The position numbers were made by a program, and so were the translations under genes. Below the pieces are notes generated by a model. It searched no databases and was not told the DNA's origin. It saw nothing but the letters and a program-made list of their open reading frames with translations. Positions 33,264-63,100 of a stretch of DNA of 64,000 nt are shown here, piece after piece (position 1 is the stretch's first letter; each line of letters starts with the position of its first letter). Origin of the DNA: Plasmopara viticola (lineage: Eukaryota; Oomycota; Peronosporomycetes; Peronosporales; Peronosporaceae); contig MBPM02000095.1 in the NCBI GenBank assembly GCA_001695595.3, forward strand, positions 62,001 through 126,000, written 5' to 3'.

Positions 33264-36218
33264 ATGGACCGCTTCCGCCTCGACGGCGTGGACCAGGATG
33301 GCGTGGACATTGTTGAGCCCATGCGGCCCAGCTCGTTCGACATGACCTTCTCTCTTGGTAGCTACCCTAGTACGCAAGGAATCAATCGGAACAGCGACCA
33401 TCAGCACAACAGCACTCAGGACAATAACGGTGCGAATGACAGCAAAAAGGCACTCGGTCGAGGTGAGAAGGGCAGACTACACGTAGACGAGCTCATGGAC
33501 AGCATGCGATCGCAAAAGGTCGAGACCAAGAGCTCTAGCATGGTTTCGAAAGACACTGAACGCACTGCAGCTACTTCCCCAGTGTCTTCGTCTGAGCAAA
33601 AGGACGTTGCGGGTATTGCATCGAGGCTGGAAGGGAAGGCGCATGAAGCCATTGGTGTGGCTAATTTGTGCGGCAAAGTGGCGTGGAAACTGTCCAAGCG
33701 CACACAAGATGTTCACGTTTACAGACCAGCAACGCTTCCATCGGACGAAGAGGCTTCGACAAAACTGTACTTTCGCATCTCGTGCGAGGTTAAAGCTCAT
33801 CTAGGAACCATCATGGAATATTTGACTCCAAGCAACTCGAGGAGTTACTTTGACATTGAGTCGCAAGTGTTTCCAGGTTTATTGCATGCTGCAGTTATTA
33901 AGCGGATCGAGTTGCCAGATCGTGCGCCGCCAAGCATGGCAAATGCTGGACAGCGAGTACTCATCCCGTCGAGCTCATCAGCCCCATCTTCTGCAAGTGA
34001 AAATCATGATGACACTGCAAGTATTGACGAAGACTATAGTGATTCGTTCCCGCATTTGCATGTTAAGTGGCACGCGAGTCGTTTTGCTGGACGTTTTGTC
34101 AAGCCACTGGATTTTTTCTTTGTAGAGTACGCAAATATCGAAGCTATGGCCGATGGAAAGAAACGTGGATACGGATATATTCGGTCGGTTGAATCATTTA
34201 AAGGAGACGAACTTGCCTGTCGTTTTGCGGGTGATGACGTGATTATTCCTCCTAGTGTCGCTAAATGCAAACGTGCGGTGATAAATAAAGGCGTGTATTT
34301 AGTGTCGCCGTCCGGTGATACTTCTGGTACTTACGAAGTTACGTGCATGATGGTAATTGACTTTCAAAAGCAGTTTACAAGCTCGGTTGGAGCTAAAATA
34401 ATTCACAACTTTACTGAACGACTGATTGGTATTCGCGAATTGCTCTTCAACACGCTTTTCCGCTCGATTGCGGTGCTACCAAAAGACCAGTGGAAACCAG
34501 CACGCAGCAATAAGTGTGCGATCTGTACGTGCTCTTTTTCGATTGTTAAGTCGAAGCACCACTGTCGAGCTTGTGGTGAAGCGGTCTGCGGACAGTGCAG
34601 TAGAAAATGGACGTTGCAACCTGGTGCCCAACTTGAGACACAAGCTAGACTCTGCACTAGCTGTTCGTTGCAGGCAAGGAGCTATCTTATGCCAAATGGC
34701 GAAGCTAGTCGCTCGCCTGCTGGTGCGTCCTCACGCATGTCGTCACTAGTCAGTGATTTTAGTGCGAGTTCCAGTCAACATGCGGGAAGCCGTTCGAACA
34801 TCTCTCGCTCAAAAAATATCTACAAATGTAACGTTCAAGTTGCAAGTGCAGTTTCTTACGACTCCGATACATTTGCAGCTGTCACGTCTGCGTTTTCGAT
34901 GCTCATTAGCTCTTTGGGCGATCAAATTCCTCATTTTATGTTGGTTTCGTATTCACACCACCACTGCGGTGCCGTAGTGTATGAGGCGCTTGCTCGAGCG
35001 GCTCCTGACACTCTTTTTATGGGCGGCACTTCGAGCGGCGGTGTTTACGTCGGAGCTACACCATCAGTTTTGGACTCAGGAAGCAAGCAACACAACAAAA
35101 ATGGATCTTATGGCCCCACTGTTGGATTGTGGGGAATCTTCGACCCAGAGGGATCATATGCATTATTGAATGCTGATTTAGATCTAGAGAATCCACGCGA
35201 TGCTGCTCGAAGGTGTCTGTTCGACGGTATGAAAATGCTTGCAATAGAGCCTGAAGACAGCCCGGACTTTGTGTGGACTGTAGTAGGAGGCGAAGAGGAC
35301 AAGCACGAAGATGGAGAGGAAGAGCAAATAACGCGAGCATTGAACGAAATTGTAGACTGCTCGTACTCGGTTGTAGGTGGTAGCTCGTCTCGCCCCGCAG
35401 CTAGTAATTACGGGCCTGCGACGCAGTTATGCTCCGAAGGAGGCATCGTTGGGTGTGTGACCAAGCACGGCGCATGCTTTGCGATTTGCTGCCCGAGTGT
35501 TGAGGTCGCGCATGCGTTGTTTACGTGTTACGATGCGACCAGTAAGACGTTTGTCGTTACAAAGGCAAGTGGCCGTGACTTGGTCGCATTGGATGACAAG
35601 CCTGCACTGGAGGCTATAAACGAGGCAACTCATGGCATGCTGGCCGAAATGACGCAACGGCCAGAAAAGTTCAACCTTGAATCGAGTTTGTTGCCAGCTT
35701 ACTACCCAGTGGCCCGTGAGAGACGTGGTGCAAGGCCTCGTGGCCTTAAGCGAACTAGCGCACGCTACCAGATGCTGCAACCGGAGACATCGGCCCGTGA
35801 TCTTTCGCTGCATTTGGGCGCTGAGGTTTGTCTTGGCGAACGCTTACGCATGATGACTCTTTCCCCACAAGGCGTAGCTTCCAGAGCACGTCGTGGACTT
35901 TGTGATGCCGTTCGAGTGTCCATTCCCACCATAAATTATTCAGACGTCATCGGCTGTTACCTCAGTGTCGGCATGAGCTACGACCGCGTATTAAATGGTG
36001 ACTTGAATGAGTTGGCTGATGCAACGGGAAGAGCTTTTCCTCATGGTGCTTCGTTGTTGTCGGTTTCGGACGGACAGCAAGGTGTTTTGACCGGCGGTAA
36101 CGAGGCAATTCATGCTAATAGCATGCTGACGGCTTTAATCATCACGAGTCGAAGAAAGGCACAGAAGCTCAACCCTCTTCGACCGCTTAACATTCGGGTG
36201 GCGACAACATCCGCGTAA
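33264..36218 (+). CDS. START-FYVE-FIST multidomain protein
   Basis: Intronless gene of 984 residues starting at a clear ATG. The N-terminal 100 residues are polar and low-complexity. A START-like region (about 110-400) is related to that of the gene at 18823. A canonical FYVE finger follows (about 408-475) with CAICTCSF, KHHCRACGEAVCGQC and CTSC, predicted to bind phosphatidylinositol 3-phosphate on endosomes. After a Ser-rich linker, residues about 519-830 form a FIST_N-type sensory domain: FMLVSYSHHHCGAVVYEAL, MGGTSSGGV, a GLWGIFDPEGSYALL strand, an SVVGGSSS turn, and the diagnostic FVVTKASGRDLVALDDKPAL. A FIST_C-like region (about 850-975) has FPHGASLLSVSDGQ. FIST domains are proposed to sense small ligands, so the fusion suggests ligand sensing coupled to an endosomal membrane (inference). 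Confidence 0.92.
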   Translation: MDRFRLDGVDQDGVDIVEPMRPSSFDMTFSLGSYPSTQGINRNSDHQHNSTQDNNGANDSKKALGRGEKGRLHVDELMDSMRSQKVETKSSSMVSKDTERTAATSPVSSSEQKDVAGIASRLEGKAHEAIGVANLCGKVAWKLSKRTQDVHVYRPATLPSDEEASTKLYFRISCEVKAHLGTIMEYLTPSNSRSYFDIESQVFPGLLHAAVIKRIELPDRAPPSMANAGQRVLIPSSSSAPSSASENHDDTASIDEDYSDSFPHLHVKWHASRFAGRFVKPLDFFFVEYANIEAMADGKKRGYGYIRSVESFKGDELACRFAGDDVIIPPSVAKCKRAVINKGVYLVSPSGDTSGTYEVTCMMVIDFQKQFTSSVGAKIIHNFTERLIGIRELLFNTLFRSIAVLPKDQWKPARSNKCAICTCSFSIVKSKHHCRACGEAVCGQCSRKWTLQPGAQLETQARLCTSCSLQARSYLMPNGEASRSPAGASSRMSSLVSDFSASSSQHAGSRSNISRSKNIYKCNVQVASAVSYDSDTFAAVTSAFSMLISSLGDQIPHFMLVSYSHHHCGAVVYEALARAAPDTLFMGGTSSGGVYVGATPSVLDSGSKQHNKNGSYGPTVGLWGIFDPEGSYALLNADLDLENPRDAARRCLFDGMKMLAIEPEDSPDFVWTVVGGEEDKHEDGEEEQITRALNEIVDCSYSVVGGSSSRPAASNYGPATQLCSEGGIVGCVTKHGACFAICCPSVEVAHALFTCYDATSKTFVVTKASGRDLVALDDKPALEAINEATHGMLAEMTQRPEKFNLESSLLPAYYPVARERRGARPRGLKRTSARYQMLQPETSARDLSLHLGAEVCLGERLRMMTLSPQGVASRARRGLCDAVRVSIPTINYSDVIGCYLSVGMSYDRVLNGDLNELADATGRAFPHGASLLSVSDGQQGVLTGGNEAIHANSMLTALIITSRRKAQKLNPLRPLNIRVATTSA

Positions 36219-36612: not shown

Positions 36613-36966
36613 TGCCGTTGTAATGTAATGTAATGTAATGTATTACGTTATCGCGTTGCCAAGTTATGCACGTGCTAGGCTCAGTCTGGCTAGTCCACGG
36701 CATAGAGTGGTGTCCGCATACGTCGGGTCTCGTTCGGCGGGCAGTGCAGCCAGCACCGAGGTCGTGAGGGTCTTCCATTATTTTGTTTAGCCCTGACTTG
36801 GTAAGAGCCCAAGTGGCGCCCGGTGCTGGAGACCGTCGCGTCGAGGGTGAGACTTGTAAGAGACCTGCAGATGCCCGAGAGCACCTGCCCGAAGCGCGCG
36901 AGCATTTAGCCCCCGCGCTTGGAAGGAGGGCGTCACCCCAACCTTTTCCAGGCTCTTGCCGTTGTA
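36613..36966 (-). mobile_element. SINE-like retroposon, copy 3, with 10-bp target duplication
   Basis: The body is 36623-36956 (334 bp, minus orientation), homologous to the copies at 1543 and 29609. Direct repeats TGCCGTTGTA lie at 36613-36622 and 36957-36966. The tail here has four (AATGT)-type units, more than in copy 2, as expected for a slippage-prone 3' tail. It is inserted about 400 bp downstream of the START-FYVE-FIST gene. Confidence 0.88.
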
Positions 36967-37315
36967 TGTTTATAAAATGAGTATATAAAGTAAACTTTCT
37001 CCTTCTTCTTCTTGATCGATTTCATTCCATAGTGATCCCAAACGAACGGCGAATAAGCAATAAAAAAATAATGTCTCTTTATTTCTTAAATTCAATTGTA
37101 AGCGCTTATGGTCAGCATCGCTGATGTTAGCTCCGCGAAAATTGCTATCGAAAGCTGACTTCGGAGGAATCGTAATCAGGCTACGAACATCGAAAAAGGT
37201 AATGGACTCGTACGGAAAAGGCCCTTACCCAAGCCACAGACACAACGATTCTTATTGTCGCATTTGCAATCGCCTAATACGTTTTGCATAGCTCGTACCA
37301 GCTGGCACATAGTTG
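36967..37315. other. Junction between SINE copy 3 and the viral element
   Basis: No recognisable coding sequence. The palm and thumb part of the viral polymerase that should follow on the minus strand is not readable here, so the element is either truncated or decayed beyond recognition at this end. Confidence 0.4.
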
Positions 37316-38730
37316 CTAATGTCGAGCATTTTTAATCTGACGTCGCAATGCACGTGTCGCATGGATCTTTGAAAACCGAATGATGCTGTCTGTATCGATA
37401 GCTGCTAAGAGGCCGATGTTATTACGGTTGATATCGCAGCGACCGCTGTTGAAGCCAGACACTGGTACTTGACCAAGTTGCTGCTTAATCCTGCCATAGC
37501 CAGATCTCTGCTTACCGAAGCAAAGACTGCTGTGAAAAGAAAAGAAGCTGACATAATTCCCTTCTTCAATCCAGCTCTCCACATCTGACATCTTGTAGGT
37601 CTCACCAAGGATAGCACCTGAAAATTTCTATTCCAAGCATTGATGATCTACTGTAGAAGCAGCTTGTACTTCTTGACATTGTACTCTTGAATTTTCAAGG
37701 ATACACCACCAATGTATCCCTAAGCAGAACCTTTGGATTAGGCAGCGTATCTTCACAAATTAGCTATCGGCATACAGACACAGGAATGTGCTCGTTCGTG
37801 AAAATAGTACTCTCACCGTGTCGAGTCTCGTTAGGCTTAAAATAGCCTCGAAGTCATAAACGATAAAGTGGTCGTTGTACTTGTCAACATACATGGCTAG
37901 CATCGATTGAATAGTGTTCGGGACTAGTCGTTAGATAGTTGGTTCAGCTGGAAAACTTTTGATGTTTACAAGCTCACACCGATTTTTGGTATGGTCGCAA
38001 AAATCAATCCACACTTCGAACATTGGTACTTGGACCGAAGCATATCGGAGACCTCGACGTATAAAGCATGATAAACATGGAAAAGAATATCTATAGCAGC
38101 TACTTGTCTCTCTGAACGACGGATGCACTTAACTTCCACGTACTTACATCCATGAAGTAGACGCTGATACCGAAATGAAAGCATTCCTCAAGTTCATCGA
38201 GCTGCAGTGGTCAATTGGGCTTGAACCTTTCGTCTCAATATTTTCTGTAAGAGCAGGAGCGCTTGGACACTACATAGAGTCTGAATTCGGCGAGCATCTT
38301 TCTTAGCATGCTGATGCAAGTACATGCGATACAGTGAAGTACACAATAATTGTTGGTCTTGGAGAAGTTGTTTATGTGCTTGTTATCGCGGATAATTTGT
38401 GGGATAACAGCTTCACTATCGCTAAGTGCATGCTAACGCAAGTAAATGTAAATTTCAAACCCGGTGATCGCCTACAGATTATAGCCAGATTTGGGATAGT
38501 TTAGCAAATTAACCAGCTCCATGAACCTTATCTCTGAAAGAATTCTCTTACGGATACCAGATCGACTCTTTATAGCAACAGTGGTCTCATATACTAATGT
38601 GTTAGCCAGATTTGGGTGCCCGTACTGGGTAAATTCACCATCCGTAAGTAGTATAAGATCTTACCCCAGAGCAATGTCTATTTTGAAGGCGTTAGTACGA
38701 GTAGCAAGCACGTTCTCGAGCTAATGGAAC
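37316..38730 (-). pseudogene. Protein-primed DNA polymerase B, N-terminal and exonuclease part, decayed
   Basis: Minus-strand frames show the Polinton PolB order. A KHINNF...CVLHCIACTC block (38310-38390) corresponds to the conserved DN..I..L..CfFRClA region. It is followed by a DELEECFHFGISVYFMD stretch (38150-38200), a YQCSKCGLIF zinc-binding motif (38000-38040), the ExoI motif FIVYDFEAIL (37850-37880) and the PVSGFNSGRCDIN motif (37430-37460), equivalent to GFNSGKYDLN of the family. Many stops and shifts are present. Palm motifs are not visible, so only the front half survives. In an intact element this enzyme would replicate the viral genome. Confidence 0.75.
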
Positions 38731-39235
38731 ATCTCAGCAAGCTGGATACTGAGGGTTCGGTCTGGCACCCAATCGTACGTCATTGTCTATCATCGCTTGA
38801 CTTTTTATGTCAGAAAAAAGTGGATTAATATAGTTCGATCTCGGTGTTAAGTTCTCTTTCAGTGTTGTTAGTTCTTTTACCGTTTTCCGATCATTTCATA
38901 CATCTTAGAACTTTTATTCGGTAGTAGATTCTAATTATGTTTTTAGATAGAAAGTCATGCCGTGTTCCAAATGCTTAAACAATCAACGAGAGCTCACAAA
39001 GTTGCCATGTAAACTATGGACCATCTAGGAGGTAAGTCAAATCAAGAATCAGTTAATCTTTTTGGATTTAGTAGCAAGTTTTTTTACAGAACGGTTATGC
39101 GCAAACCATTTCGTAGTGAGCTTGAGCAAATATTCGCGATTCCGTTCCATTCCATCAATAGCCGCTATTTCATACTCTTAAATGAAAGAAATGATATTTG
39201 TCATACATATCAACCATGTTGTCATGACTCAGTGG
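38731..39235. pseudogene. Unassigned stretch within the viral element
   Basis: A 78-codon plus-strand frame (39016-39252) and a preceding Cys-containing short frame have coding-like composition but no recognised family. They could be decayed viral genes. Confidence 0.25.
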
Positions 39236-39293
39236 TAGCAAGTTTGTGGTAAATATCATGCATGATAGCATGATATTTACCACAAACTTGCTA
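39236..39293. repeat. Perfect 26-bp inverted repeat with 6-nt spacer
   Basis: The arms 39236-39261 and 39268-39293 are perfect reverse complements (beginning TAGCAAGTTTGTGG), with spacer ATGATA. The arms retain perfect identity while surrounding viral frames are riddled with mutations, which suggests either recent formation or a structure maintained by gene conversion. Confidence 0.9.
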
Positions 39294-39348
39294 TCTATGC
39301 GTTTTTCTATCGCATCATATACGGCTTAAGATGTTTTTTTAATTTCAG

Positions 39349-39369
39349 ATCACTCGCTGAGCGAGTGAT
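39349..39369. repeat. 21-bp palindrome
   Basis: ATCACTCGCT-G-AGCGAGTGAT is a perfect palindrome with one central base, 55 bp to the right of the 26-bp inverted repeat. It could be a site for a dimeric protein or a remnant of a terminal structure; nothing decides this. Confidence 0.7.
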
Positions 39370-39539
39370 TAAAACGGCAAGAGCTTCTTTTTCGAGCACA
39401 GCGACGTGTTTGACGAAACAAAATTAAGCGCAACATGTATGAAGGTGCATCGTGGGCAAGCGATGCTGATAAAACTATACCTTAACCGGTCGCAAAACTT
39501 TCAACGTCAACATAGACAGATTTGCCTGAGCCCTCTAGA

Positions 39540-41930
39540 AGACATTGACACTGAGGTCTCAGTACCGTTTCCTTAAATTAATACGCTCAATAGTGGGATG
39601 TAAGCAACTCCCGACACAACTGATGAAGGATTACAAATTCGCCTTGATACAACTGACAGAAATTTACAGGCTCGCCCTGATACAATTAATGAAAGACTTT
39701 TTTTACAAGCTCGCCTCGATATATTGGATCACAAATTTCAGGTTTGTCCTAACACCAAGGCTGTCAGTTCGAACATGGATCTTACAATACCGCCACAGAA
39801 GCTAACAATGGACTCTGAAGAACAAATCATATGAAGAGATTGGATTGAAGATATATTTCGAAGAGTATCCGAATTGGGTTGCTCTCCGAATTTGTCCCAT
39901 CCAAAGAAAAAAATGGTAAAAATGATTTGAGATACCGCCTCGAAGTTGAAGGGTCTTTCATTTTTATCATAGAAAATAAAAAGCGACATAGTTATGAAAC
40001 AATTGAATGGGTTGCCACAAAGCTAAGGAGCTAAAGTTCGGGAGACGGTGAGAACAACTAAATTGGTGAAGTTGGATCCATGCGTGATGAAGAAAATCGA
40101 ATGCGAACTTATGCGGAGCTGACGATGACAAGCTTCAGGATAAAAGACTGAATAAAATTCATTTCGCCAGTAAGTTGACTTCGACAAGCTCTGACAATGA
40201 CAAAAGTCGAATAAAGAGTTATGGATTTTACTTAGCAACATAGACATGTTTATATCAAATGAGCTAATGAAGAGTATCGTTTTCATTCTAAAAAAATAAA
40301 TCTGATGAATCCAATCTACGTCAATATGTTTGGACTATCGATATTTCTGTTGAAAAGTCCAATTCAAAGCATAAATCGGCTTTTTGATAAAATTTATTAG
40401 CAATCGACGCTTAGTACATTTTTAAGCATGGTTAGAAGCAGGGAATTAAAACTATCAGTGGTCGGGCCACCTGACTTCGAAAAGTCTATCAAACAATTAC
40501 GGAGAACCGACGATTATTATCGAGAGGTGCGACGTGGTATCAAAAGTCGACTGATTGATGACAGAAATGAAAATCGATCAATTCCCGACATTGATGCTGA
40601 ATAAATCCTACTGGATTCTTACACTAAGTTGGCTAACGAGCAAATTGCTATCCCATTTCGGATGCATTCAGTTGTAAGTTCAAATAACGGCATGAGACCG
40701 CACAAAGATTGCTATTTCGGTCAGCCAACAGCCTCTCGGTCTCTAAATATCAGCACGATCGCTAACTACAACATGAAACATTAACCAGTGTCTGGTGTTG
40801 CTTTGAAGGGGTTATTGAGAAATATTCAATGGATGGCTACATTCACATAGCTGCTTAATCATTTGGATGACTTAGATCTAAAATTGACTAGGTTTCTATT
40901 AAATGGTAAAGAAGCGGCTGATTCCATTGAAGAGAAAAATTTGAATGAAGGCTGTCGAAAAAACCTTGATCCGAATTAAGTGGCTTTAAATAAGGCTATT
41001 GTAAGGACTGCACAAGATATCACACGACAAGGTATAGGAGAACGCCATGACGAAGATCTATAAAAACTTCACGATGATGGTACGTATGGTGAGGCTCAGA
41101 AACGATATGAAGCGGCTTAGCTGAATGTGGAAGGATCTGTTATAAAGCAGCGAGATCCGCAGTCTATTCAGCTATTATTGCTAATAAGTCTCTTCATCAG
41201 TCTAAAAACTTGATGATATCCAGATGCTCAACTTAAATGACAAGATCGTGTTATGAAAGTGCTGGTGTCGATCCATTGGAAAGAGTGGTCGGACGTCGTA
41301 GAGCCTATAATCTGAATGGGATTTGGGGCTAAGCTACTCCATCGGCCTACGTATATCGACAACTGGGTAGCAAGTACATTCGTTTGCCAGAACTTGATGC
41401 TAAGACACTTGTATTGGCCTAAACGAGGTATATGCGATCATAGAGTTGATGATTAGTGTTGGTCTTTAAGCTATGATTAAGACCCTCGTCTATAAGTAGA
41501 ACACAGTCCAAAACGATTTCGATAAGCTCGCTTTGATGGCAAAAAATGTTTAAAGAGAATGTTGCCATCCCACATCTCCAGTGTCATTTCTATGATAGAC
41601 TCAAGGATCAGAACTCAATGGAGCGCTTAAAGTGTGCAACAATGCTCCACGTACAATTAAGCAGTTGAAGTCTTTCACAATGAATTTGTATAGTAACCAT
41701 CTCACCTCAAACAGCGATTTTTGAAATATTATCACTCGTATACGATAGTCAGACACAAAATGTTTTTCTCAGACAGGCGCATCATTGCAAAATCCGGGGG
41801 AAGCTATGGTGACAACGCCGATCTCAATGTCGCTGAGCGTAAGGCGATCATAAAAAAAATATCATTAGTGAGCGGCGTCAGAATACATAAGCAGCCGTTG
41901 GGTGGCAAAGCTGTTTAGAAAGCGAATGCT
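39540..41930 (+). pseudogene. Unassigned decayed viral coding region(s)
   Basis: Plus-strand frames have clear coding composition: charged and repetitive around 39615-39800 (DTTDEGLQIRLDTTDR), then 40430-40600 (a Lys/Arg-rich frame starting at the ATG near 40428) and 40860-41160 (KEAADSIEEKNLNEG; AIVRTAQDITRQGIGERH). The run ends with a 65-codon open stretch stopping at 41918. Stops interrupt every frame. No family was recognised; minor structural proteins are a guess from position. Confidence 0.35.
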
Positions 41931-42028
41931 TCAAATCAAATGGATGAGTTTCACAGTTTAGCCGGGGGCAAAACACAGAGTTGGGATTAACGGCCCAAGA
42001 AAAAAAAGACAGTAAAGGCATTTGCAAT

Positions 42029-42528
42029 TCAAGATATACCATTTCTTTTAGCTTTGTCGTCTAATCCTCGGTAAACACCGCTTTCTTTACCGCTGATACT
42101 TATCTTAAGTATTGTAGACCTTCTGTCAGGAGTTTTGGTAGGTAGAAAAACACTGACACCTAAGACAACAATCGGATCAGCTTTCAATACCGTCGATCCG
42201 ATAATTTGATTTGGTTCATCTGATGTCATATTCAATTCAGTTTCCTTACTTGGTATGCATTCTTTTCATAGCTCATGTATATATCACCAAAGAATTTCTT
42301 TGAGAACCAGTGAGCTGAAAATGAGCGCTCGTTATCGATTGAGTCGTGCCTATTATTGTACCCGTCGCGATGATTTAGATCGCGGTGATCAAATGCCCTG
42401 TACGCTTTTAGTGGGGTTGTGTCTCTGTATTGATCGTAAAGCTCACAATTGCTTCGAATACCAACAAACGATACAACACGGCCATCACAAAGTAAAACGT
42501 CATACTTTTTCAGTTGTTTGTCTGACAC
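42029..42528 (-). pseudogene. Unassigned decayed viral frame(s)
   Basis: Two adjoining minus-strand frames (42528-42232 and 42235-42029), of 98 and 68 codons, immediately downstream of the fibre relic. The second has a regular alternating hydrophobic pattern (DPIVVLGVSVFLPTK). No family was recognised. Confidence 0.3.
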
Positions 42529-42559
42529 AGTAAATTTGTAGCTTTACTCCTTCATGCTT

Positions 42560-43690
42560 GTTCTATACTACATAGTCAAGTTTTCAAATTTGCTATCCCT
42601 TTCAATCGATGTTGTATCAGCTTCATATTGTATGTCAATATCCTTGAATATTCTACATTGAGCTGTTGTTCCAAAAGTTCAAGCGATGGATTTTCTCCTT
42701 CCTTAGTATTATCTCTATAAAAACCTGATATCAAATCTGTGAGATCAGCCAATACTAGGTCTTGAGCGATGAGTCCTACTTCCTGACCTTGTCGATTCTC
42801 TGAAACAATCCATTCGTAAAGCTTGAAATCTACACAATCGTAAGTCGTTTGATACGATTGAGATGAGCATCGACAACGTTCTTTTTCAGTATTCTATCAG
42901 AAGTCATAGCCATGGCAACACAAGCAAAGTATCCGTTAACTTTGGCAGCGACGCTATACACAATCGGACCGAGGGTTAATTTTTTTTTTCAAAAAAATCA
43001 ATTATTTTAAAATCTGTTCGTAGTTCTTAAACAGTATGCGAGCCAGCTACGAATATCAAATTGATCGCATTGGTAATGGTTAGTGGTGTGCTAAGCCTTG
43101 TTGTTCCCAAGCCGAGGCGCTCTGAAGCCGTGAGAAGCAAAGTCTCGTCCCAAAGCAAAGGTCAGTATTTGAGATCTTACTAAGCTAAGTAGCGTTCGTC
43201 GAAGTGGCGTTAGTGCCGTTGTTCACTTCATCTATGGATTGACAAGGATACCAGTATATTGAAAATCACGGTATACGATCCATCGAGATACGATAGCCTT
43301 GATTCTTTAATCTCGCAATATGCTACCGAATTGGTAACGCTGATTTTAAGCTCTGTGATCCATCCTACAACAGTTGTAGTCGTTTGAGGCTATCAGCAAC
43401 TAAAATATCTCATGTGCTTCCGGATATAGTTGTACGAGCAACGTTTTACGTTTGTAGAACACGATCATGAGTCAAGGTTGTGCCAATATACGCTGCACCG
43501 TTCTGAAGTGCTACAACGCAAAGGACGAAGTGCCTTTTCCATTACCAAGCGACTGACCACTCGCAGCAGGATTAGACCAGTGGCTAATAATGTACCAATG
43601 TAAAAAATATTCCTTGCTGATGATATCACCCGAATATCTCCTATCGAAAGCGAGCTAAAATCCCCTGCCGTCCCTGAGACCAATGTCGCT
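42560..43690 (-). pseudogene. Fibre-like protein with C-terminal Peptidase_S74 (intramolecular chaperone) domain, decayed
   Basis: The upstream part (43683-43465) reads VSGTAGDFSSLSIGDIRVIS, the short-beta repeat style (GTxxxxSLSIGxTQVIxxxRNxxNIGT) of viral tail fibres. The downstream part (42930-42590) carries the S74/ICA signature: SDRILKKNVVDAHLNRI, then YEWIVSENRQGQEVGLIAQD, then LNVEYSRILTYNMKLIQHRL. S74 domains trimerise and self-cleave from fibres and spikes of viruses and phages. At least two frameshifts separate the blocks. Adjacent frames at 42528-42029 may belong to a neighbouring gene. Confidence 0.7.
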
Positions 43691-43699
43691 CCATTGATC

Positions 43700-44197
43700 G
43701 TAAAGAGATTGCCATTTCATCCGATATCCTAGTAGCGAAGCTCGGGAGAGCAACTAAGACCGGCACACTCTTCTTGACTAAGGATGAGCTGCAGGGGTCT
43801 GATGCGACACTTCATCTTCATCCTGAATCTTTTGCTAGAGCTCTTCGAGCACATAAATATTTTAAAGACACTCAATTAGCTAATGGAGGTCGTTTATCTA
43901 TGACTGATATAAAATTCGGAGCGAAACGTACCGTCGCTTACACAAAGCATACGGGCATCCTCACAGATGAATTAGATGCTGGCGAAATACTTTTTTAAGG
44001 GTAGGGCTACCAAACTAGAATACAATGATTTCATCAAGACGATTCGTGGTGAGGTTCGGCGACGGTACGAGATTGAAGTTTTCAAGCCAGCGACAAATGT
44101 AAAGCCCAAGAGATTAAAAAAGGGTTCACAAGAGGCGAAGGACCACATATCTAAGCTACGAGCTATGGAGAAAACTGGACGAGGTTTTAGAATCTGA
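43700..44197 (+). pseudogene. Unassigned viral frame, nearly intact
   Basis: Plus-strand frame 43774-43998 (start of open stretch near 43700) continues after one frameshift near 43985 into 44197, giving about 155 residues of basic sequence. It includes GAKRTVAYTKHTGIL and ends KTGRGFRI. It lies head-to-head with the fibre relic. The Lys/Arg-rich, amphipathic style recalls small structural proteins of Polinton and adenovirus-like viruses, but no family is demonstrable. Confidence 0.4.
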
Positions 44198-44209
44198 TTT
44201 CATTATAGA

Positions 44210-45000
44210 TAGTCCCTATAAATCGTCTATTTTTGTTCGAAGTAAGAGCATGATCGAAACGGATGTATCACGGAACTCACTTTTTGGTCGTTCTGGTTAT
44301 AGATACTGATCGCGATCGTTGAGCGCGACCCAGTATAACAATGCATATTGAGACGGTTTAAAGTTGATGAGCTAGCATCACCTCTGTCGAAGGCACTCAA
44401 AATATAATCAGATGCGACGTACTCATTTTTTTCAAATCTGTAAGAACTGGTGGGGTGAATGTGAGGAATGATATTTGTTAGTTGAGCACTCTTACCTGTT
44501 GCTGATGCAGCAGGGAAGGTAGCTTTAGTCAGGACCCAAATCCAGCATTATCAATTATCAGGCGAGGGATGCGAGTTGTTGTAGGTAATTCAGTGGTATA
44601 GGCCAGTTGTCGATCTCGTGTACCCGACCGGAAGGCTTGAAGGGGTCGGTAAGAAATCAATCTAAGCTGCAAAATAAACACTGTTCTCTGTTAATTCGAT
44701 ACCGAAAACATTGTTCCCAAATGCATCGATACGATGAGCTCCTTATTGATTAGAGCTGTCAAATTATTTCATCATAGCTGTAGTATCCGTCTTGAAGACT
44801 TTTGTTGAGCGTAAAAGTCGTTGACGCCGTTAGCATTTTAAATTGAAACGAGGTGTTCCGAAATTGGATAGCATTGATTTTGTACTTGGAGTTGAAGAGA
44901 GAGATTGACTGAATCGCACAAACAACATCTCGAAAACCGGCTGCCGAAAAAGGGAACTGATATTTCCACGAAAAAATGTTATACGTCTGCAACGAGGCTT
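44210..45000 (-). pseudogene. Penton-type minor capsid protein, decayed
   Basis: The minus strand shows FTLNKSLQDGYYSYDEI, a DAFGNNVFGIELTENSVYF block, FLPTPSSLPVGYT, then TGKSAQLTNIIPHIHPTSSY and DRGDASSSTLNRL, ending with a SRSTIAISIYNQNDQ strand. This is the order found in penton proteins of Polintons, Polinton-like viruses and virophages (pdGxYs.. / Pt.LP.gyt / NiiphI...s / ia...yDQ). It is broken by a few stops and shifts. These proteins form the pentameric vertices of the capsid. Confidence 0.6.
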
Positions 45001-46590
45001 GTACTATCAGTCTTCGAGAAGCTTGCCATGATAATTATACGAGTATCTATAATTTTTTAACATAATTTTGTTTTTTTATCGGGTTATCAAAGTCATATCA
45101 GGTTTTTTACTTGACTGAGTTGATAAGCAACATTCGGCCTTTTCCTTTTCGTGACTTTGTTGTAGTAATATACAATCGAAAGATCATCCACTCCTTTGAT
45201 ATTGAAGTCTGTATCGACCATGTGTACATCTCACTTCGAAGCAGCCCTAAAACCCGCTGCATTTTTAGGATTCAATCTGATGATCTTTTCCGCTGCAAAG
45301 TAGCTGTGAGATAAGAAAATGGTGCTGTGTCATATAGTGCGAGAACCTATTTTTCTAGAGTAGCTTGTTGTTACTGTTGTCTATTATGAGCTCAGTTTCT
45401 TTTGGGTGTATGTCGCACCTGGTCAACTTTGGGAGGTGAATCCGGGTCTACAAATGTGATTAAATTCTTGAGCATATCTCATTGAGCTCTTGGTGGGTGT
45501 TACGAGCAATACTCGTGAGAAGAGCAAATGCATGAGAAGCATCCTTAAAAATGAACTTGCAGAGATTGTTTTTCCTACGTGGTTTAGAATAGCACTCATC
45601 GTCGTGTGCTTTAATCACTTGATCGATACAGATTAGAGCAAAAAACTGAGTCCTGGTTTCGCGTATCACCAACCAATATTCAGATCACCGATCTACAATC
45701 CAACCTTCTCTCTACCACTAGACATCAAGAGGTATCTCAAATACCAGTATGCGCAAACACTATATCGTAGCAAGAACGACTATCGTCCGACATACATCAA
45801 GGAAATCGTTCCCGGAGTAGCTACGCAAGGGATTTTCCTCGTGCCGAGAACTTAAAATGGTATCAGTGGAATCGGGGACTATTTCGTGCCAATCTAATAC
45901 TGAATTGATCCGCTGTTGCTCCGACTTTCTTGATTGGTATTACCCCTGGAACAGCTACTGCAAGTAAAGCTCGTGTACACGACTCTACACGTTCTTGTAC
46001 TAATATGTACGGCATGACATTTGACTCTGGAGGATATGCCTTCTTTGGGATTTGAAGGCATTACATTCAACTAGAGTTTATTTCTCTCAATAAAACAAGG
46101 GTCAGCGACTGCTTTAAAGGTGAAAGTTCTCGATGCTTTTAAAGACATAGCTGGGTCTAGGGTCTGTTTCTGGAAGTATGATTATATTTCATGATCGGAA
46201 CACTAAATTTGAATTCAAGAATTGTCAGATTCAGGTCCTTATATTGATTGTTTGCAATCGAGCCTAGCAAAAACCATGCCCCACAGTGATCTCCATAGGT
46301 ACCTCGATACTGTTTAGGATTATACTCCCCTTTATAAGAGCAGACTTGTCCATAAAATCGAAGTATTCCCCACTATCGACACATGTCCAGTGTTCAATGT
46401 CTCGGTTAGGACTTCTCGTCAGTTTCAGATAGCTCTCTTTCTTAGGAATCGGTTTTGCAATGTCACTTGGCTCGAAATATACCGTCCATATGTACTCCAA
46501 CTCCTTCCGCAGGCTCGAAATGATTTTGGTCGCTGGTGACCGGTTCGATAAGATCGACCATAATATTTAATTTCACAAAAGAATATTGCG
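45001..46590. pseudogene. Unassigned region between the capsid genes
   Basis: Coding-like composition is seen on both strands: plus NPTFSLPLDIKRYLKYQYAQ near 45690-45750 and KVKVLDAFKDIAGSRVCF near 46120-46165; minus frames at 45672-45460 and 46500-46264. Because both strands look plausible I cannot assign a direction or a family. Confidence 0.25.
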
Positions 46591-46599
46591 TTCCATTAA

Positions 46600-48230
46600 A
46601 ATTAAAATATGAGCAAAACTCAGCTATCCGATCAGTTCTTATACAAATTTCGCTTCAAAGCGACCCGGAAATCATGTGTCTTTAGGCAATTGCACTCCTT
46701 TCGTCATCGAACTTAACCAAGAATCATACCAGAATGGTAATGTCATTATCGATGCTACAGCTCATCTAATGGAAGTGAAGGATTTGCTTGCCTGCGCAAT
46801 GCATACATCATGCTTCCATACAAGCTTTCGATGAAGAATGGTGGAACTGTATGACAGCTGCTGTTAACCGTTTCTGCGCTACACCCAAATGGGACAACTG
46901 GTTTGTTATTGATAGCATGTGGCTTGAATTCAATGGCTGGTTACAAGCTCTTTTGGAACAATGTACGAGCACATATATGTTATAGTTCTGAGTATGCTGA
47001 AGGCATGGAGCTGACTGATTAGTGAACTCTGATGCTGCTCAATCTGTTTAATACAGCGCTGCCTTATCATCAACCTATGGCGGTGGCTTCTCCGAGAACT
47101 CTGCTTTCTCTTTTTCATTTGCTACTCCTGCCTCCTCTGGCGGTGCTACGGTTGCGCTAGTGATGGTCTCGTCAGACGCCGATTGTTAAATCCTCCTAAT
47201 GCTGGAACTGACTTTACTTCAACTTGGCCTTCGCTCGGTGCGGCTGCGGCTTCAACGAACATTGCTAACCAAACAGCGCGTGGTGCCTTCATTGCTGGAG
47301 TCTTAACGGCTAATGGATTAATGGGAACGTGAAACTACATGCTTAAAAAACTTACTGACCTAAGGAACCAGTTTTGATGGCTATCCTTCAAATTCGTCTC
47401 CATTTCGCGTCAATCACGGAACTTCTGTTGCTGCTGTTGACTCAGTTCCGAGCATGTCTCTAACGAGCACTACTCTTGCATCTGGTAATACTTGTCCGGC
47501 GATGGTATCTGCCTCGAGTACGGGAAAACCTATAGCTGGGTCCCATCTGCGTTTGCTAGATTTAGCATTGCATGGGGGGCTGTTGTCAATTCTCTGGAGC
47601 ATACCATAGTTGGTACCTACATGCCTTTTACAAAATCGCGTCTATACGTACCATTTGTACATCCATTTTTAATCCTGTAAGAAAAGTTCGATTGAAGACT
47701 GCTACGCTCAGTGATTCAATCAGCGAGCTAAATTTGGCAAGAAATCGTCTTGGTAAACACTGCTTTCGATCTTCAACTATCGGCATCCACTAAGAATGCT
47801 AAATGAATCATTCTCCTTACCTTTGTGGAACAAACGAGTAGCTTTGCAACTGCTGCTGTCCAGGAGTTCCTGAATCCTTTTGACTCGGTCCCTTGGACGG
47901 AACATGTATCAGTAATTTTAGCGTACGTATCGGGTCTCAGCAAGTATTTGATATAAGCCATGACTACGACTTCCACCATTTCACCAACAAAGTCGATAAG
48001 ATCTCAGCGATCAACGGTGATCTGACTCCTGAGCTGGTTAATGGACTTCTTGACTACCAGATATCTTGTTGCTGACGTTGGCCGACTAATTGATCGCGAT
48101 GTCCCCGCATCCATTCAAATCCAGGGAACAAACGCCGGATGTCAAGGCTGAAGTACACTGGTCATGGTTGCATTTGAACAGGAACCAACCTATGATGGTC
48201 TGATAGTGAAAATTTTAAAGTTTACTACCC
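46600..48230 (+). pseudogene. Double-jelly-roll major capsid protein, decayed
   Basis: The plus strand carries LRNAYIMLPYKLSMKNGG (46795-46850), then WFVIDSMWLEFNGW (46898-46940), WNNVRAHICYSSEYAEGMEL (46957-47016), an NxAxxxRG-type segment (47270-47290), and near the end LVADVGRLIDRDVPASIQIQ (48060-48120) followed by TLVMVAFEQEPTYDG. This matches the layout of Polinton/virophage major capsid proteins, including the C-terminal 'sIQvqatN...lv..afe' ending. Many stops and shifts show it is dead. Confidence 0.6.
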
Positions 48231-48260
48231 CTTAAGAAGAAACCAGCACCTTTGTTCAGT

Positions 48261-49850
48261 TAGACTAATCGCTTTGGACATTTAACCATAATAAATTGAC
48301 TCTTACGAAGGCAATCGATATAATTGAAATCGATAAGGTATGTTTGTTTTGGAAGACTTACTTCGAAATTTCTTTCACGCCATCATTTATGAGTTATCAT
48401 ATGAGGAACTTCGAGTAAAAAAAATATTTGTATTTTCTTTCCAACATACAAATGGGCTGATTTAATACTCATCGACAATATCCTGGATTAGAAGCATATA
48501 TCTCCTTGATTGGCTTGGTCTTGCATCTTTCAAAAGTTTGTTCGCTTTTCATGGTTTAGGTTGAGTGTATCTATATACATACCCTTTTCTAAAAAAAATA
48601 TCAATTAATAGGAAGGTACGCAGAGGTTTAACCCCTTAATTATGAAATTGATGGTCTTATCTCTCTGGGTCTATTGTTTGGCTGTCTGGTTAGCAATACT
48701 TCCTGGATATTAGAATTATCAGAACCTGCTTTCGACTTATAATTGATGTGATAATTAGTGAAAAGAAAAAAATTGCCGGAGTAATGTGCCAATTTATACA
48801 ACCAGCACAACAATTACGTGGTTTGGTCACAATGTCAAGCAGAGACCTTACCATATTTCTTTTTACGGCTTTTCGCAGCATTTAAGTATACAAATTCGTA
48901 TATATGCCGATCGAGCGTTTGGTGTGAGCAAAAGGCCACTACAGTGGTACTTGTCTACGGCACACTTCGTGCTACGATATGTCAGCTTGTACCATGTTAC
49001 ATATAGCGTGCTGTACAACATAAAGTTGGCTTTTGTATTGTTTTAAGCTTTTCACATATCACACGCCCAGCAGCCCCTCTCGACTCTCATTTTCTAAAAT
49101 CTATGTCAGCCGTAGCTCAGTTTAAACCTTGTGGTCTTTAACGTCCTTCCGAGATACACCACACTACCTCTACTGGGGTCCTAAGTGTCCGGAAGTCTGC
49201 TGGGGTCGCGCACTAAATGCCGACTTAATTTCCTGTCCTGACTTTCCAATACTTAGCATCAGTCATCGTGGGCGCGTAATCCACCCGACGTTTTTGTTCC
49301 GATTCATTTCCGTGTCGGAAATGCCTCGACTTGTTGCGTTAGTACCACAAGGGCACGTGTTTCGTTTTTAGATAGCATTCATAGCGTCACTTTTTGGCTA
49401 CTTGTCCCATTCCTAATATCCTTAGAAGTGAGATAGCGCTCCGTGTATCTCTTTTTGCCACACTGCAGTGCAGCCAAAATCTCTATACTCTGTGTCGGTA
49501 AGATCTTGGTCTCAAATGTGTGCAGCATACGCTGTGTTGCGGGCCGATACCTTTTTCGATCTATCACTCTTTAGTCAATTGAGTTCAACTATCCTCACAA
49601 TCCTGATCTTTTCGTGTTCTTGTCTATTGCTGTTTGCTAGCACACTCTGCAAAAAAGAGCTGTCTTGGTTATGCTGAGAAAAAGCATAAGTTCAGGTCTC
49701 AGACCTCTATTTTGGAGTTAGAGCTTTTTGATGAACAAGCTGCTTGCTACCCAAGCACATTGCTAGGGCTCTTCTCACTTGGCTCGAAAATGATTATGTT
49801 ATTATTACACGCAGCAAACTTTGTATTTGAAGAGATTAACTTACTTGCCA
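48261..49850. other. Right flank of the viral element; possible copia fragment
   Basis: Around 48800-49030 one plus frame reads WCEQKATTVVLVYGT, which may be a distorted copia RNase H (K-x-x-TVALS) segment; this is weak. 49129-49371 holds an 80-codon frame without motif. Nothing else was recognised. Confidence 0.3.
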
Positions 49851-52375
49851 CTCCATAAGTTGCAAGGGATCTACTGAGTGGTGATCGTAAAACAAAGAAC
49901 CTACTGCATGTCAGGATTGACATTGTTGTCTCCAAGCTAAGCCAGTTTGGGCGAGGCACTACGACTGCGCGTGAAGTGGACATAAACCATTGAGGGATGA
50001 TCATGACACGTAGAGCTTGTATATGTCACCAGAGACGTAGCTGTTCCAAAAGGTAAGAAGAAGGGCAAGTAGAAATTATCATATAGCATAGAATTTGTTG
50101 TGTACAGGATTCTATTTTTTTGGTCAAGTTGACATGGGTGACGAGAGCCGTACCATTTCGCGTGAGTGGCCTGTAATATAATTCGCAAAATGACACGAAT
50201 GTTATTTTCTCCGAGTCGACTAAAAGTTTGCCCATTGATCGCGTGTGAAGTGCACATTCCATTAAACGGTGAGCTACGGTCATTATTCAATATTAATTTT
50301 TACACTCCACGCGAAGTCGTAGGACCTCGCCAAAGTTTGCATTGGCTTGATAATACCTATATCATGTTTTTGACATGCTATAAACTCTATGTCATACAAG
50401 CACCACTAAGTGGCTGATTTGCCACTTACACGCATTGGTTGGGCCACCTTACCCACCCCTACCTTGCTACCACTTGACAAGATCCGCAAACACAACCATG
50501 TCATGTATTCTGCGCAGCACATTTTTGTTTACAATTACCTTTACTCGCCCCTCCTTGCCACCTTGACTTAAAGACAATGATGTCATAACGACAGGCAACA
50601 AGCTGTAAGTGTTACGATCACCAACCACACTCAACAGATTATACTACATTTCACGCGCACTCGTGGGGCCTCACCCAAATTGACCTCGTTTGATGTTAAA
50701 GTGACTCTTCTTACATGGAACACGTGCTGTGTCGTACAAAGACTGCTAAGCCGTTTCCTTGCCACTCAAGTTAATTAGGTAGGTGCTTCCCACTCATACC
50801 ACCTTGACTTGAGAACAACCATGTACGCAGCACATCACATGTGACATGCTGCTCTTCGTCGTACAAGCCTTAATTAACTTGAGCTAAGAATAAATTATGT
50901 ACGCACCAAATTATGTGCTGCAAGCTGTGGCCCTTTCATACTCTGTGATTCTTAGCGCACAGTTTATGGGCCTCGCCTGAGTTACCTCTGCTCAAAGGCA
51001 ACCGTGTCACTTTTGTCATGTAGTTGCAATGTGTCCAACGAGCACCACTTAGTGTTTAACTTGCCACTCACGCGAAATATTATAATTCTCGTCACCCATA
51101 TCACCCTGGCTTGACTGCTACCATATCATTTATGTCTCGCAGCGAATTATGTGATTTGTTTTTTGGTACTTGCGGTTCCTGATTACCTTAAATCATGCAA
51201 TTCATGACTTGCTGCAAACTTTTAGTCGTACGATCACCGCTCGATGGCTTATAAGATGAGCCCTACCAATGCACGTAAGTCGCAAGAAACCCCTTCAGCG
51301 GTGCTCATAAGACATGCTACCGGCTGTGTTCACGGTAGTCTGCAAGCCAAGAAAAATTGGATACGACCTTGTGACTGTGTGATGGAGCTCACACATATCA
51401 TTCTAAGATAATTGATAGACTCAAAGCAAGCAGCATGTAAGAAGTGACATGCTTGTCTTCGAGGCCAGGTGATAAATTATAGCGAGTAGAAATAATTGGA
51501 AACACAGAAATTGCTGCGTAACCTGAATTACATTATCATTCAAATCAATGCTATACGAATAAAGAGGTTTTATCATGTGCCCATCGAAGAGTCTCGCTCA
51601 CAGTGCTTTGGCTCGAGATAAGCCGTGTAGTTTCTGACATGTAGCACGTGCCATATCTTAGGAGTACGGCTTATTGGCTTATCTACGATTAACAATCAAG
51701 TACGCTGCAAATACTGTGCCCAAGGATTTCATTGCTCGCCACTTATTACAATCTTGGCCTGAACACAATCATGTCTTTCATGACTTGCTGCAAGCTCTAA
51801 GTGTTACAATTATCACCCAATGCTGAATTCGAGATCTCAAGTGAAGTCGAAGGGCCTCGCCCAAAGTGCCTAGGCTCGACACTAACCATTTAATTTCTGA
51901 CAAGCAGCGAGCGCTTTGTCGTAATATCACCGCTTTACGGTTTATGTGCGCATCGAAAGGCCTCGCCCACAGATTTTTGGGTTCAGACCAGCCGCGTAAT
52001 TTATAACTAGCTCTAATTGGGAGAGCTTATCTCACCCGCACCATCTTAACCTAGTAGCATTCGTGCTCGAAGCAAAATTTGAGCTTGACAAAAAGAATAC
52101 TTGCCATTCCTTATCAGCTAGTTTTGAAGACAACAATATCTCTCATAACAAGCTGCAAGCTCTAAGTGCTACGGCATCTACTCAATGCTGTAATATATAC
52201 ATCACGTACAATCAAAGGGCCTAGCCCAAACGTGTCATCTCTGACACGTAGCGAATACTGTGTCTTACGAGCATGGCCAAACGGATCACTTGCCACCCAC
52301 GCGAATTAGCTCAGCCTTCCCACTCAAGTCACAATAGTAAATAAGGGAGCCGCTAACTTCCACCTAATTTTCGCC
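49851..52375. repeat. Degenerate satellite-like array, units of roughly 300 bp
   Basis: A block GG(G/A)CCTCGCCCAAA, then GGCTTGA(A)GACAACCATGTCA, TGACATG(C/T)AGCAAGCTCT, TACGATCACCACTCA and CTTGCCACTCACGCGAA recurs. The first element appears at about 50323, 50666, 50967, 51870, 51959 and 52214, with weaker copies near 51587. Spacing is mostly 280-340 bp, and each unit seems to contain two related halves. Parts are inverted (for example 49851-49990 and 51420-51470). It continues right of the MULE at about 54720-54840. Units are much diverged, so the array is old. No protein is encoded. Confidence 0.7.
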
Positions 52376-60110: not shown

Positions 60111-63100
60111 AGAAATCGCTATACTCTACTGTAAATGTCGGATGTTTTACCCTCTGGTGCTCCAGAGCACGTGATCCTGAAAAGGTTCAATAAAATTATA
60201 CATGAAAGACTTTTGATAAGTTGCGATCTTAAGACTAGCTCAGAATTGAAAGTCAGGCAGCTAGCACTCTGATTTGATTTGTTGTTAAGAAGACCATAGA
60301 CCTGAGTTCAAGCTTTTTATCGGTTTTTAAGCTCTCAAATTTGGCGACGAGTCCGGAAATTCAGACTATCATCTTTCCATTATTTGCCCGTTTAGCGGAT
60401 AATGATCTCATATGCGGCAGTGGTGACACAGTCCTTCATGTATGGCGCAGAAACAATCGCATTTTTTATGTCTTAACCAGTGGGAGTGGTTTCAGGACGG
60501 CATGGCTGAGTTTTACGTTCGTGGCAATTTTCTTCTACCAAATATACTGAAATTTTGGAATTATTTAGGATCTTGAAGCCCAGTCAGAACGTATTTGGCG
60601 GATTTGGACATAACTGAAGATATTCCGGACCCTTATGTAAAGTTTGTGACCTTCGCAACATCACCTCTGAAAAATGTCCAGCTTACAACCAAGCTAAAAT
60701 CTTAGTAGCTTAGATCTCTATGAGTTTTGATAATTTCGACACCTCTGACAGGGCCTTTAGCTTAAACGTAGCTGCCGTCACATATTGATCAGTTAAGTGC
60801 TCTGAGAGTAAGGGCTTTTCATCAACCACGGGGTCCGAGGAATCACTTTTGGATTGTATGCATCTAGCAGAGACATGTTGCCCGATCTTTGCGGTACTCC
60901 GTTATCCAAATGCTAACCTTTTTTCTATACTATGCCTTGCGAACCTATTTAACCCGCTTGCAGAGCTCGTTACTCACGGTGGATGGACAATCTGTACCCC
61001 TGTATCTTGTGAACCTGTGGTACTCTCTTGCGTGCTATGTTGTCCGCAGCTGGTGGTATTATGTTCCTCGCATAAATCCTACGATTAGAAGGTCATCTTT
61101 AGCGTCTCCATCAGCCTGCCCCGCTAGCAGATCTTAGTTACCCCCTCACATTCTATAAAGACGCTATCACGTATTTCATTGTAAATTTATCTGTGCCTTT
61201 ATTACCTTCCATATTAATAGCGGTCGTGTACTTGACCAGGCGTCTTTTTAAAGGTGTCGTGGGCACAACAGGGGTGGAAATAATGCTCATCAAAGCCAAG
61301 CTACGGTACATGGGGCGGCAAACAACTATGATTTGATCCACCAATCGATCTAGGTCGTATGATTTTCCAGCCTCAGTATTTCTTGGATCAAGTTGTACTT
61401 GTTAGCTTAAATCATTAGAAATGATTATGTTTTCGAATATCACAGTCATTCATTTCCAAATTTAGGAAAGTCTGGATCGTCCATTTGCCAGACGGTACTA
61501 TCTTTGTTGACCACAATTGTTGCCGGCTCGTGATATTTTGTGTGTCAACAGAGACTAGCAAAGTTTAAGATGGGCTTCAAATCATGTATCTTGCGTGCCG
61601 AATAGTAGTTCGACACAGCTGAATTCTGTATCGGAAGGTGTCAAGCTTTCAGGGGCTAAATATTCTGGCACTTATCACCAACTTACCCATCGTAAGGTCT
61701 AACTCTTTCTCAGTAGGGCGACTAGTGATAGCGATTCTTCCGCTCCGAATGCGCGGCATCTACCAGCAATACTTTCGAGGACTTGGGCGATACAGGGACC
61801 CATTTCGGCGTTTCACTAATGATGGACCAGAAATTCTTGCAATTTAAACCATATCATTGAATATTTTCTTGCTCAGCAACACTAACTTTTTTAAGATTGA
61901 ACTTGATTTAGCCGGATGATAACTACCATTGTAACTTCTAGCCTGATTGGACGACATGATGCTCATCTACGGCATTCCAAAGAAGCGGTCGTATCCGTGG
62001 CTGCAACCCCCTTCAAGAGCGATTGAAGTAGTGTCTCCTATCGTTGCTACCTGCATACTAATGTGAGCGGGGTGCTCCTTTTTGAACCGTCTAAAAAAGC
62101 GTTTTGACTCAATTTGAGAGTTGAGCCGTAAAATATGGACTGTTAACTCCTTTAATTCACGGTAAAGCTTATATCTACCTTATAAAAAGGGTGCACGCTG
62201 GCGTAAGCCAACCTTCGCCGAAAGGATGCCTATCTTAACTTTTCTTTCATGTGTGTTCAGGACATAACTGTATTATTTGCGATAATTCTTTTCTCAGTAG
62301 CCGTCTTTCAGAAATGAAAAGCTTGACCTTCGCTAGCTCGGACCTTACAATAGAAGCAGTTGCCAGTACTACTTATGTTATTTGATCTCGTAAAAATAAA
62401 CTTTGCTTAGAGAGAACGAACACCATGGCGCATTCCAGAAGAGGGGGAGAAGGGTGGAGCTGTAAGTACAGTCGTCTTCTCAGGCCAGCAAGTCCTTTGA
62501 ACAGCCTAAGGTGCTTGTGCGACAGATGTGAAGCGGTGGTTGTATGCACCTGACAAATTTTTCAAGGGTTAATTAATCTACTCAAGTGGACGTAGGATAT
62601 ACGAGCTCTGACAGCTGGGACAGAGTGACACAGTACTGAGACTTGAGAAAGCAATCCAAACTTTCGATAAATAAGTCTCTCACGTAAGCCCTACAGCTTA
62701 TGCTTGAGCACCGACTTTTGTCGGTAACTATAAAGGGAGACAAGTTTAATGATATATTATCAATAAGGGTTAATAAATTTAATCTCCCATTTCCATAGAA
62801 AAACAAAGGCCGCTTTTACCCTTCCCCTTCTCAGTTTTTATATTACTTTCTCTTTTGAGAGAGACCATTTCGGGACGATCATGTGTGTTGTTGGTTTCTG
62901 CCAGACTTTTAAGGTTCGACATTGGCGTGTAAGGTTTCGATTCTCTTTCCCACGTATCGTGTGCAATATTTGCTACAGCCGAGCGATCGCTGACCACTCA
63001 CGATTGCATACATCGAGATCTGGGGCCAGAGCGATAGCCTTAATAAATTTGCTTCCTGAATCACAATAAGCGGAAAATAATAGTTTGTACACACTAATTT

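Follow-up and report, generated by a model that had tools for sequence, protein, structure and literature searches.

What left the broken, virus-like reading frames in the middle of a 64,000-nucleotide stretch of the Plasmopara viticola genome, and is anything there still functional? The stretch (hereafter the window, in whose own numbering positions are given unless a contig is named) is positions 62,001–126,000 of contig MBPM02000095.1 in assembly GCA_001695595.3, here C95; other C-numbers denote contigs of the same assembly. An earlier note, made from the letters alone, had read positions 37,316–48,260 as a decayed Polinton/Maverick-like virus integrated in an oomycete genome, citing four hallmark genes: the front half of a family B DNA polymerase (PolB), an S74 fibre, a penton and a double-jelly-roll capsid. 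Our data indicate that 37.0–48.55 kb is very probably a decayed endogenous Polinton-like virus (PLV), old, broken and rearranged. The coordinates proposed earlier were nearly correct (homology spans about 37,000 to 48,552), and a decayed Polinton or PLV in an oomycete is still the best reading, with the major capsid protein (MCP), the S74 fibre and the PolB exonuclease each backed by relatives. Three of the four hallmarks are upheld (the PolB front half, the S74 fibre and a homologue of the MCP), while the name penton and the double-jelly-roll fold lack confirmation. The PLV group concerned is already known as widespread in oomycete genomes; the present copy is real, and its kind is expected.

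Pieces of the window yielded only sub-threshold matches in the profile check with Pfam and PHROGs, so the identification was made through less broken relatives. DNA matches were located in the P. viticola genome itself, their longest open frames were read, and three of these served as queries against public proteins, returning 37 matches for the S74 fibre, 55 for the MCP and 190 for PolB (120 of them listed). Among the matches listed, relatives of all three genes came chiefly from Phytophthora and Plasmopara, with Phytophthora top-ranked and Plasmopara halstedii further down the lists for S74 and PolB; the 120 listed PolB proteins also included animal ones (Caenorhabditis briggsae, Exaiptasia), as is expected for Polinton polymerases. 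As a control, the relatives were aligned back both to the window and to the reversed window. Within its own genome, the element belongs to a dispersed family of copies mostly 64–80% identical in DNA, with inter-copy differences mostly of 20–36%.

All 55 MCP relatives matched the window (best E = 1.9e-66) and none matched the reversed window (0/55). The match begins at residue 1 of P0041 and extends to residue 407 of P0062 (409 residues long), changing frame along the way, and a protein search of the own genome also recovered it (C95:108,848–109,860). The named organisms among these relatives are Phytophthora, including P. infestans PITG_05033 (P0082; 45% to the query used), and the UniRef name of P0038 is 'Capsid protein'. 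The capsid gene reported earlier therefore stands as an MCP homologue at 46,609–48,226 on the plus strand, and its double-jelly-roll fold is not confirmed: AlphaFold predictions for two public relatives of the MCP were too poor to do so (pLDDT 33.8 and 39.1), and MCP queries found no MCP-family match in Pfam, PHROGs or PDB sequences. The fold would rest here on published work, which describes the Gossevirus MCP as a double jelly roll with HHpred support (Bellas and Sommaruga 2021, PMC7805220).

Decay of this gene can be read codon by codon. In codons aligned to P0038, stops occurred at 9 of 331 positions in the window copy, compared with 3 of 362 in C53, 1 of 349 in C4 and 0 of 351 in C80. Mismatch between the window and C53 at codon positions 1, 2 and 3 was 0.32, 0.28 and 0.46 (330 codons), and the excess at third positions suggests that part of this divergence arose while the MCP ancestors were still coding. 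The lower values between C53 and C4 (0.22, 0.16 and 0.36; 348 codons) indicate that the window copy has drifted further. Homology across the full length of the MCP would also fit a viral capsid or fibre gene captured by the host and retained for its own use, a reading that the stops and frame changes throughout, the split fibre gene described below and the modest length of the longest stop-free pieces (107 aa) leave with almost no credibility.

The S74 fibre is likewise borne out, with 37 of 37 proteins matching 42,582–43,710 on the minus strand and 0 of 37 matching the reversed window; the best match was 70% over 87 aa. Pfam PF13884 stayed below cut-off on the fibre piece of the window (E = 0.023) and was passed by a relative in the own genome (E = 2.7e-5). 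Residues 1–79 of P0026 match 45,643–46,155 at 48%, and P0032 matches 42,289–42,510 at 49% over 74 aa; PF19058 was below cut-off on a window piece (E = 0.02), passed in P0025 and fell just below in P0027. The gene layout given in the earlier note had to be corrected, the MCP and the fibre lying on opposite strands and the fibre gene being split by an inversion. The block between the two fibre parts (43,702–46,182) is reversed relative to both flanks in C4 (at 0.64 Mb), C53, C62 and C28, and relative to the one visible flank in C7, C18, C93, C9, C21, C146 and two C6 loci, and the two fibre parts meet in C4, C62 and C7. Since the block has the opposite orientation in these other copies and the fibre parts are joined in three of them, the inversion most likely took place in the present copy, disrupting its fibre gene. 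The complete inversion was seen in none of the other copies examined, and no inverted words of at least 8 bases were found at its two edges.

The PolB front half also survived scrutiny. The motif FIVYDFEAIL lies in the minus-strand piece at 37,763–37,930 and GFNSGRCDIN in that at 37,319–37,627, and the pieces match PolB loci elsewhere in the genome. Sixteen of 25 minus-strand pieces (at least 25 aa, 37,000–38,950; the 16 include overlapping shadow frames) matched one to five of the five own-genome loci compared (on C6, C46, C25, C4 and C7), with all 55 matches in minus frames and none to the reversed loci. This part holds 36 of the 52 DNA match rows, at 64–86% identity, and on C6 and C46 (L049 and L048) the same stretch continues into the PolB palm domain. 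DNA_pol_B_2 (PF03175) is present in 12 of the 120 listed public PolB relatives, and in a rescan of six of these carriers five passed the curated cut-off and one fell just below; Pfam gave no match on the L049 palm piece or on its best relative, P0093.

Thirteen other loci carry PolB and MCP at most 20 kb apart, with C38 and C53 counted once. The two genes share a strand in 10 of the 13, and in all eight in which PolB lies 5′ of the MCP, as it does in the window; the window itself has them on opposite strands. PolB may have been flipped, or it may be part of a second insertion. The latter would mean two insertions brought side by side by chance or recombination, a Polinton fragment with PolB (37.0–38.7 kb) and a capsid-bearing PLV fragment (38.9–48.5 kb). 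None of the 52 DNA match rows besides the window itself crosses 38.75–38.89 kb, which leaves room for this reading, as does a PolB orientation opposite to that at all eight loci. An inversion within one element would also explain the orientation, though, and the window copy does contain another inversion; moreover, PolB and MCP occur together at the 13 loci, including C4 and C53, and PolB adjoins the capsid block on C7. We consider two insertions unlikely, if worth keeping in mind, and continue to read 37.0–48.55 kb as one decayed PLV.

Several observations weigh against that reading. Searches of IMG/VR viral contigs with PolB, MCP (as a piece, as an alignment and from the second lineage described below), ATPase-like and protease-like queries gave no confirmed relative. 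The PolB palm domain is absent from the window, judging from the 120 palm-query relatives aligned back to it; exonuclease pieces match and palm proteins do not, so the window holds the exonuclease half without the catalytic palm. The single one of these 120 proteins that does match the window does so on the opposite strand (37,800–37,979, plus strand; E = 2.7e-7) through the C-terminal end of a P. lilii protein (P0118); its gene model may have been read from the wrong strand. At C44, C247 and C269, PolB and MCP are on opposite strands with PolB on the 3′ side. Two copies do not agree with a simple inversion confined to the window: in C4 at 2.20 Mb the fibre start is flipped as elsewhere and other parts of the block are window-like, and in C10 at 1.36 Mb the block is oriented the same way as its sole left-hand match. 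Terminal repeats were not found when 36.2–37.4 kb was compared with 48.2–52.0 kb, as expected if the ends of the element have been lost, and a Pfam scan of 20 window pieces (a subset of the frames) showed no rve integrase. Finally, the names penton, ATPase and protease that we attach to smaller fragments are unproven. A strict Polinton, with PolB, integrase and terminal repeats, is not shown for the present copy. Among the relatives, P0155 matches rve next to PolB, though below threshold; in the C4 copy, the flanks have no mutual match and the edges share no word of at least 9 bases.

The limits of the element follow from comparison with the other copies. To the right, homology to the compared copies ends at 48,552, and a genome search with 48,560–51,500 returned only the self-match (the search skips very common words). 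To the left, the PolB matches stop near 37,000, just inside a high-copy repeat of which a further copy (94%) lies beside the C46 PolB locus; beyond it, a 986-aa open frame on the plus strand, apparently a host gene, ends at 36,218. Position C4:654,638 was considered as an element end and rejected, as C6, C46 and C25 continue past it and it is merely a break in C4.

Taken together, an old Polinton-type PLV would have become integrated in the genome of a P. viticola ancestor, carrying PolB, MCP, an S74 fibre and probably a penton, an ATPase and a protease, a gene content with which it could in principle have copied its DNA by protein priming and packaged it in a capsid. The copy would then have died, as its MCP gained stops and frame changes, the 2.5 kb inversion split its fibre gene, PolB came to lie on the other strand without its palm domain and a repeat came to lie at the left edge. 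Each of these traits (MCP stops, frame changes, split fibre, PolB strand, palm loss and left-edge repeat) can be read directly in the sequence; the copy presumably has no function now.

A different explanation is that the breaks arose in assembly and the element is actually intact. For some protist assemblies, repeated viral genes have been reported, as a caution, to contain false stop codons (Bellas et al. 2023, PMC10120064), and the present assembly is partly redundant, C38 and C53 overlapping almost letter for letter. Against this, it is a long-read assembly polished with short reads, according to its description (PMC6660063), and the divergence of the window copy from its relatives, mostly 20–36%, would make a mix-up of reads unlikely. 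More directly, a search of the own genome with P0038 gave at least 119 MCP matches (112 of 263 candidates scored), and 21 of these 119 rows have open frames of 470–596 aa without an internal stop. Such open frames argue that the assembly does not, as a rule, break these genes, and we regard assembly error as very improbable.

These open frames point to a second, young MCP lineage. With the DNA of one open MCP as query, 34 of 40 scored copies (query included; 40 of 127 candidates scored) were 96–100% identical, and all scored copies of the lineage were 87–100% identical to the query copy. Some lack an open frame, and many are on small contigs. At one locus (L076, C80:18,500–26,500), an open 591-aa MCP lies beside a fibre frame that is open for at least 700 aa and passes the S74 cut-off (E = 9.9e-9). 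In this locus, as in the window, the MCP and an S74 fibre are neighbours on opposite strands; unlike in the window, where both genes are broken, the frames here are open, and the MCP is 25% identical to that of the window over 412 aa (tblastn). The genome may thus hold two layers of one virus kind, an old, broken one and a young one of tens of near-identical capsid genes, perhaps still moving or forming particles, an interpretation to which we give slightly less than even chances. Many capsid genes of the young layer have open frames, and at least one stands beside an open fibre gene. The recent expansion of this lineage is more interesting than the window copy itself.

The remaining parts of the window copy are listed with the genes above in Table 1. 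The stretch at 38,890–42,030 shows mostly 66–80% DNA identity to C4, C53, C7, C14, C93 and C62, and its scanned pieces gave no Pfam family above cut-off. The penton of the earlier note is retained as a fragment (44,230–45,034, minus strand) homologous to a 137-aa open frame in C53; the name, which we assume, is unconfirmed, the C53 frame having no match in Pfam, PHROGs or PDB. Likewise, 45,125–45,489 may be the remains of a packaging ATPase (its C62 counterpart has no Pfam match, and its best PHROG, at 0.033, is an unrelated family) and 46,321–46,452 those of a maturation cysteine protease, with a GHW...Q...C pattern in the C4 copy (no Pfam match; best PDB match not significant, E = 0.23). The open piece at 43,702–43,995 (plus strand) presumably resembles a pX-like minor-capsid protein, with no profile match. 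All four fragments are conserved among the copies in the matches listed, and the putative set of penton, ATPase, protease and minor capsid would agree with the Gossevirus genes as published. PDB sequence searches gave no useful match, and ribosomal S18 rows among their results look like chance.

Table 1 Features of the decayed element and its left-hand border in the window; names marked 'presumed' are our assumptions.
Feature	Position	Strand	Evidence
High-copy interspersed repeat, ~320 bases, non-viral, just outside PolB end	36629..36949	.	at least 42 matches, 94–98% identity
Remains of N-terminal (exonuclease) half of Polinton-type family B DNA polymerase	37000..38660	-	matches to own-genome PolB loci
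One or more conserved viral genes, broken	38890..42030	+	best frames mostly plus
DUF5754-like short gene or tail adjoining fibre	42289..42510	-	7/37 S74-set proteins match
S74-chaperone fibre gene, C-terminal part, several frame breaks	42582..43710	-	37/37 S74 proteins match
Block inverted in window copy, ~2.5 kb	43702..46182	.	opposite orientation in most other copies
Small fragment, presumed pX-like minor capsid	43702..43995	+	open piece; similar C53 piece
Probable penton remains (presumed)	44230..45034	-	48% over 101 aa to C53 frame
Possible packaging ATPase remains (presumed)	45125..45489	-	short matches to C4, C53, C62, C7 frames
Fibre gene, N-terminal part, cut off from remainder by inversion	45643..46155	+	5/37 S74 proteins reach it
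Possible maturation cysteine protease remains (presumed)	46321..46452	-	64% over 44 aa to C53 frame
MCP gene, full length, about 9 in-frame stops plus frame changes	46609..48226	+	55/55 relatives match
Short conserved reading frame, outer edge	48266..48552	-	53% over 45 aa to C53 frame

Three further observations concern the viral loci elsewhere in the genome. C38:686,775–706,521 and C53:1–19,747 appear to be the same stretch (outer limits taken from the offset); of six locus pairs compared, five are identical letter for letter, and in the sixth the lengths differ by a single base. The end of C38 would thus be the start of C53, and copies there were counted once. The loci at C44:490–506 kb, C247:27–43 kb and C269:0–15 kb are mutually alike and represent a third arrangement, with a distant MCP (34%) and PolB and MCP about 13.4 kb apart. 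Sequence that we take to be Crinkler-like lies beside three viral loci, at L075 (C4:654.7–655.7 kb), L049 (3,818–4,276) and L076 (583–2,201), the L076 frames having no Pfam support above cut-off. In Phytophthora sojae, the repeat described as most often flanking duplicated CRN genes is the Polinton (63 genes; PMC3726527).

The element fits a published setting. According to Bellas and Sommaruga (2021, PMC7805220), oomycetes hold 15 complete elements, four oomycete elements carry PolB with an integrase, and a cysteine protease occurs in 90 members of the 2021 set (n = 155). Bellas et al. (2023, PMC10120064) count as many as 299 MCP copies in a single oomycete genome and assign the MCPs of oomycetes to five clusters within the Gossevirus group, a group to which the window MCP may thus belong. 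The window copy resembles the Gossevirus (GKS1) PLVs, as these papers describe them, in its oomycete host (a stramenopile) and its oomycete-type capsid protein, and differs in being broken and rearranged, with integrase and terminal repeats not found where searched. It would share PolB and a Gossevirus-type MCP with the Phytophthora infestans Polinton/Maverick (as reported in PMC7805220), whereas no integrase or complete PolB was found in the window. No open-access paper was found that pairs 'Plasmopara viticola' with 'Polinton' (that wording only).

The present copy is a further dead member of this published oomycete PLV kind. It provides a long-read example of how a PLV dies in an oomycete genome, through stops, inversions and loss of the polymerase core, and the contrast between an old and a young lineage within one assembly bears on the worry that broken PLV genes are assembly errors.

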